Shown here: in pieces, positions 16,865-17,174 of the stretch | Layout of the letters: each line of letters begins with the position of its first letter | Numbering within the stretch: position 1 is the first letter of the stretch | Origin: Pseudorhodobacter antarcticus | GTDB taxonomy: Bacteria > Pseudomonadota > Alphaproteobacteria > Rhodobacterales > Rhodobacteraceae | Assembly (NCBI GenBank): GCA_945862465.1 | Contig: CAMAYO010000005.1 | Coordinates: 1-64,000, forward strand | Reading direction: 5' to 3' | Length of the DNA: 64,000 bases | The notes under the pieces: model-generated | What the model was told of the DNA's origin: nothing | What the model saw: the letters and a program-made list of their open reading frames with translations, nothing else | Database searches by the model: none | Translations under genes and position numbers: made by a program

Positions 16865-16870
16865 CATTTT

Positions 16871-16896
16871 GTTCCCTTAGTGTTCTCAAAAAGTTC
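16871..16896. promoter_or_regulatory. two overlapping alphaproteobacterial LexA (SOS) boxes
   Basis: GTTC-CCTTAGT-GTTC-TCAAAAA-GTTC, both spacers exactly 7 nt. Confidence 0.75.
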
Positions 16897-16919
16897 TTTA
16901 CAGGAAGTTCAAGATGTGA

Positions 16920-16934
16920 GAACAATGCAGGAAC
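16920..16934. promoter_or_regulatory. third LexA (SOS) box
   Basis: GAAC-AATGCAG-GAAC, 7-nt spacer, 15 nt upstream of the small-ORF ATG. Confidence 0.7.
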
Positions 16935-16949
16935 AAACAGGAGGTTCCC

Positions 16950-17069
16950 ATGTTCACCCGCTTGACCCGCAAGATCGCAGCCCAATCCGCCGACTTTGAA
17001 GACGTCATTGGTGTCGCCACATTGTTTTTTGTTTTGTTCCTTGGCCTGACCTTTTCGGGCGTCGCGTAA
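16950..17069 (+). CDS. small (39 aa) single-TM protein, putatively SOS-regulated
   Basis: MFTRLTRKIAAQSADFEDVIGVATLFFVLFLGLTFSGVA*; SD-like AGGAGG just upstream; LexA boxes upstream, terminator downstream; absent from the ORF track because of size. Confidence 0.7.
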   Translation: MFTRLTRKIAAQSADFEDVIGVATLFFVLFLGLTFSGVA

Positions 17070-17137
17070 CTTGCCTGCGGTCCTTGCGGGTGGCTTTGCC
17101 CCAAAGCCTGTCCAGCCCGCAGTTTGACACGCACCTG

Positions 17138-17174
17138 CCGCCGCCATCCACTGGGATGCGCGGCGGTTTTTTAT
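17138..17174 (+). terminator. rho-independent terminator after the small ORF
   Basis: CCGCCGCCATCC-actg-GGATGcGCGGCGG followed by TTTTTTATA. Confidence 0.88.

Follow-up and report, generated by a model that had tools for sequence, protein, structure and literature searches.

A putatively LexA-repressed family of about 40-aa membrane proteins encoded after recG in Rhodobacteraceae, with a candidate role in holding cell division

Following DNA damage, RecA-driven cleavage of LexA releases the repressed genes of the SOS response. SidA of Caulobacter crescentus, a division inhibitor of 29 aa that is under LexA control and acts on FtsW/FtsN (PMC4211646), and YneA of Bacillus subtilis are SOS-induced small transmembrane (TM) proteins acting through FtsW (PMC4211646, PMC13396833), and the TM segment of YneA docks on FtsW TM7 (PMC13396833). 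The gene described here lies after recG in the 64-kb stretch of DNA analyzed (the window) and resembles sidA in being alphaproteobacterial, in the GTTC-N7-GTTC operator type, from which alone its LexA control is read, and in encoding a single-TM protein of under about 45 aa; it differs in the length of its product, about 40 aa, and in its linkage to recG. A profile search of 81 genomes of the family of genome G476, whose assignment to Caulobacteraceae was deduced from an HfsE match, retrieved no standalone relative and had low power at 29 aa. With YneA, SosA of S. aureus and ChiZ of M. tuberculosis, all of them SOS-induced division inhibitors of the membrane, the protein shares one TM helix and, as suggested by its operators, induction by damage. 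However, LysM domains are present in YneA and ChiZ and an extended helix in SosA, whereas the Rhodobacteraceae protein ends at most a few residues past the TM segment and, with no Pfam domain in the peptide, shows no LysM domain.

An earlier note on this DNA had read the region as a cluster of LexA boxes driving a 39-aa single-TM protein, for which it proposed a division-blocking or membrane-depolarizing action, and its half-sites, GAAC-N7-GAAC pair, promoter, AGGAGG and ORF were all recovered at the positions it gave. The locus is organized as follows:

14756-16864, + strand: recG, directly upstream of the small gene and used as synteny anchor (ORF list, RecG C-terminus upstream in relatives)
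16871-16885, + strand: outer LexA-type pair GTTCCCTTAGTGTTC (motif scan, relatives' promoters)
16882-16896, + strand: LexA-type operator 1, GTTCTCAAAAAGTTC, abutting the -35 element; perfect site in 115/116 loci
16897-16902, + strand: -35 element TTTACA (promoter scan, family consensus)
16918-16926, + strand: -10 region TGAGAACAA(T), at near-constant distance from the -35 element
16920-16934, - strand: LexA-like operator 2, GAAC-N7-GAAC on the + strand, covering the -10 region and the predicted start
16939-16944, + strand: Shine-Dalgarno sequence AGGAGG, 5 nt ahead of the ATG
16950-17069, + strand: 39-aa single-TM protein MFTRLTRKIAAQSADFEDVIGVATLFFVLFLGLTFSGVA (conservation, TM prediction, AF2 model)
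17070-17137, + strand: 3' UTR, short form of a structured element that has C-rich loops and occurs family-wide
17138-17172, + strand: intrinsic terminator, stem CCGCCGCC..GCGGCGG with T6, between convergent genes

The recG stop codon (16862-16864) is 7 nt ahead of the first of three GTTC half-sites, which start at 16871, 16882 and 16893 with 11-bp spacing in the window sequence. An 18-bp spacer separates TTTACA from the -10 hexamer AACAAT (16921-16926), the -10 region reading TGAGAACAAT in the segment 16860-17180, and this pair is the only sigma-70-like match in 16500-17500. The ORF of 39 codons runs from the ATG at 16950 to the stop codon at 17067-17069 and is followed by a 68-nt stretch, with CCTGTCC at 17107-17113, up to the terminator. 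The strong terminator that had been claimed was missed by the terminator scan, but folding confirmed a hairpin with T6 at 17138-17172, and its GGCGG..TTTT end is kept in 98/115 relatives.

GTTC-N7-GTTC occurs five times in the window compared to 1.31 expected from dinucleotide shuffles, with three of the five in the cluster downstream of recG. Genome-wide there are 68 sites in the 2.9 Mb assembly, and the cluster upstream of the 39-aa ORF is the sole spot where at least two of them fall inside 100 bp; the proposal that the boxes cluster beyond chance is borne out by this and by their conservation in relatives. Another site in the window, at 48889-48903, is situated 9 nt ahead of an MmcB-like gene (PF06319; 48912-49388), a gene type that is SOS-regulated in Caulobacter (PMC9578287); judged by its operator, it is likely a second LexA-controlled gene of the window. 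The lexA gene of this genome (G000:C25, over the cut-off) also has a GTTC-N7-GTTC upstream of its start. Since both lexA and the MmcB-like gene are preceded by such sites, the motif is very probably used as LexA site in this genome. The site at 9383-9397 falls within coding sequence, that of prfC, and probably arose by chance.

Across 110 loci the promoter follows the consensus GTTC-N6/7-GTTC-N7-GTTC-TTTACA-N17/18-TGAGAACAA-N4-gCAACA, with the spacer read to the -10 hexamer; the -35 element is TTTACA in 70/110 promoters and TTTACT in 13/110. The GTTC pair conserved family-wide is the one adjoining the -35 element, while the extra upstream half-site is present in 90/110, at a spacing of 10 bp in 81 and of 11 bp, as in the window, in 9. 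The downstream element is a perfect GAAC-N7-GAAC in 13/110 promoters and GAAC-N7-CAAC in 88/110. Thus, of the three boxes originally taken as LexA sites, the pair next to the -35 element stands (115/116 loci), whereas the third (16920-16934) does not hold as a strict site and was downgraded. In the form GAAC-N7-(C/G)AAC it resembles the lexA operator of this genome, CGAGAACACGGATAGAACA, and we infer that it may serve as a second, weaker operator covering the -10 region and the start. The promoter is a composite with operator 1 on the -35 element and the LexA-like operator 2 on the -10 region and start; such double coverage of a single promoter suggests a cost to leaky expression.

The peptide is present in 14/15 sampled genomes of the same genus, and a profile built from 19 sequences matched 308/398 Rhodobacteraceae genomes, almost always once. 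Of 17 genomes missed by the profile in which the end of recG was readable, 14 still have a box after recG, together with a similarly built but divergent small TM ORF; in some others (G110, G032, G112) the small gene is absent despite the presence of recG and LexA. In a set of 116 loci, where a few species occur twice, once from each of two collections, recG is directly upstream of the small ORF in 111, and a perfect GTTC-N7-GTTC is situated 66-115 nt ahead of the peptide match in 115, compared to 0.34% in composition-shuffled upstream regions. As all 116 loci were found by the peptide and not by the promoter, the boxes constitute independent evidence. LexA-type operators are among the most conserved features of the small gene, and control by LexA can be regarded as highly probable from these operators.

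Within the genus, the ORF shows dN/dS values of 0.08-0.43 and differences by codon position of 257/139/432, a third-position excess, indicating purifying selection. A chance cluster of motifs beside a spurious ORF, for which only the shortness of ORF and motifs speaks, has practically no probability left, being refuted by more than 100 loci in which peptide, operators, spacing and synteny are all conserved. Lack of conservation in relatives had been named beforehand as a possible refutation of the proposed LexA-boxed 39-aa single-TM gene after recG; peptide, boxes and recG synteny proved conserved, and the proposal is upheld by these together with the promoter, purifying selection and the one C-terminal TM helix.

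Named relatives with the peptide include Gemmobacter, Tabrizicola, Cereibacter, Tropicimonas, Pseudooceanicola, Octadecabacter and Yoonia, among others, and on the basis of these names the protein family was placed in Rhodobacteraceae. In a class-wide sample seven matches were obtained, six within Rhodobacteraceae and no credible member outside; the seventh, a partial match inside a 245-aa frame, was taken as spurious. The homologues are labelled hypothetical in public records, no description of the small gene was found in open-licence papers, and searches of Pfam, NCBIfam, PHROGs and PDB returned no family match for the peptide and only isolated sub-threshold matches. These data suggest that the gene belongs to an uncharacterized family of membrane proteins of about 40 aa that extends across the Rhodobacteraceae and is putatively repressed by LexA. 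Three genomes (G029, G068, G115) have neither a match to the small-gene profile nor a recG orthologue, the weaker helicase matches being confined to long Mfd-sized frames. Of six genomes without the small gene, G068 has no lexA, G115 has a partial lexA match and four keep lexA; with 4/6 keeping it, no conclusion was drawn on co-loss of the small gene with lexA.

Family members are 38-40 aa long. EIK and RS..TL motifs mark their N-terminal stretch, and the TM helix, at residues about 19-37, is C-terminal with few residues beyond. The AlphaFold2 model shows a helix from 6 to 36 with pLDDT above 90 in the TM part. Near- or fully invariant residues (D, G+3, L+7, L+11, G+14, L+15, P+18) fall mostly on one helix face, corresponding in the window protein to positions around D18, G21, L25, L29, G32/L33 and S36 (mostly P in the family), and the helical periodicity of TM conservation is significant in a permutation test (p = 0.001). 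This face speaks less for an amphipathic pore than for docking, either on a conserved membrane partner or on another copy of the protein.

We consider inhibition of division through the divisome the leading explanation for the small protein, with a probability of roughly 0.5. It is suggested by the precedent of SidA, YneA and others, by the lack of SulA and by the poor fit of a depolarizing toxin. No SulA scored over the cut-off in 101 Rhodobacteraceae genomes, the E. coli control being positive, and the peptide family itself had no match to PF03846 (SulA) in Pfam. In the proposed mechanism, LexA would occupy both operators and shut the promoter until its RecA-driven cleavage after damage releases an mRNA of roughly 240 nt. 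The protein would then insert in the membrane in an N-in orientation and use the conserved helix face to dock on a TM segment within the divisome, in FtsW or its partners FtsI/FtsN, so that septal wall synthesis stays off until the damage is repaired. The docking of YneA on FtsW TM7 is compatible with the conserved TM face, and the action would resemble that of SidA or YneA, homology to either not being implied.

A conserved TM face is compatible with membrane partners of any kind, the divisome being just one. LexA-controlled synthesis of a protein that binds, for example, a respiratory complex, a protease, a transporter or an envelope sensor, and that tunes metabolism or the envelope during damage with no block of division, is possible, though we hold it for rather doubtful. 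Such a function is consistent with a face that implies only a conserved membrane partner or self-association, and with a neighborhood (recG and a NifU-like gene) in which nothing points to division. However, SOS-induced single-TM small proteins have repeatedly evolved as divisome inhibitors (PMC13396833), and the lack of SulA in the sampled Rhodobacteraceae likewise speaks for the divisome.

Divisome inhibition is also favored over a depolarizing toxin of the TisB/DinQ type, which would induce dormancy after damage. Like TisB and DinQ of E. coli, the protein is small, hydrophobic and, by its operators, LexA-controlled, and its double operator, with the costly leakage that this suggests, recalls the two LexA operators over the dinQ promoter (PMC3567139). 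TisB and DinQ are, however, antisense-regulated and have long leaders, whereas the leader predicted here from the promoter position comprises about 17 nt and is too short for antisense control of this type. Moreover, the TM helix is not amphipathic (mean moment 0.11), its 19-residue core is without a charged residue in 59/102 members, and the gene is lineage-wide, usually single-copy and syntenic. It is absent from phages and gave one plasmid match only, unlike mobile toxins. Taken together, a depolarizing peptide appears unlikely. A homologue was located at NZ_CP039965.1:332590-332709, on a Pseudorhodobacter turbinis plasmid whose record is 1.58 Mb long.

Abundant in the sea, the Rhodobacteraceae count model phototrophs and producers of gene transfer agents among their members. 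With no SulA found in the sampled genomes, how they hold division during damage is a question to which the open-licence literature gave no answer, and a gene that most of the family carries behind LexA-type operators offers a single, easily deleted candidate for a division checkpoint. If confirmed, it would be an independent case of small TM proteins halting the septal wall machinery, and the conserved helix face provides a ready map for mutagenesis.

The earlier note overlooked a conserved structured 3' UTR, owing to which the transcript may be more than a simple mRNA. Family-wide, C-rich words exceed shuffles in this region (CTGTCC 10.5-fold, TGCCTG 8.6-fold) and are unpaired more often than words of the same composition. 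In about 100 relatives, CTGTCCC and TGCCTC are placed in hairpin loops whose stems vary in sequence and keep their complementarity; stems of at least 5 bp enclose CTGTCCC in 65% of cases vs 30% in flank shuffles, and TGCCTC in 68% vs 18%. In the CTGTCCC hairpin 5/6 pairs changed on both sides among 26 aligned sequences, and its structure scores above the shuffles and all slid controls, the tested helix having been read from one alignment member, which favors the result somewhat. A short CTGCC hairpin was not clearly above its control (at least 5 bp: 0.21 vs 0.17). The element may give rise to an sRNA derived from the 3' UTR or may function in mRNA processing, and a damage-induced regulatory RNA becomes a question in its own right.

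Dual-function transcripts of a small ORF and an sRNA are known from SgrS/SgrT and from the CcsR RNAs of R. sphaeroides beside a DUF1127 gene. The present locus shares with both the small ORF and the conserved structured RNA, and with CcsR the C-rich loops, but differs in its SOS promoter, its protein and its loop sequences, and RNA activity is only a candidate function here. That RNA is the main product, a damage-induced sRNA from the 3' UTR with the peptide being secondary, fits the invariance of the CUGUCCC and UGCCUC loops on stems that vary in a compensatory manner, the covariation and the 10-fold enrichment of CTGTCC. It is nevertheless quite improbable, as the ORF is clearly under purifying selection, the 3' UTR is shortened in the window's own genus, Pseudorhodobacter, and the tested helix comes from that single alignment member; moreover, Rfam gave no match to the 3' UTR, permissive thresholds yielding chance-level matches only. 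Rather speculatively, the double-repressed promoter could drive a dual-output SOS transcript delivering both a divisome inhibitor and a structured RNA whose C-rich loops retune translation of target mRNAs during damage. When the C-rich 3' UTR pattern was searched in 26 relatives, it matched the small-gene locus in most of them; its other matches are without a flanking hairpin and look like chance.
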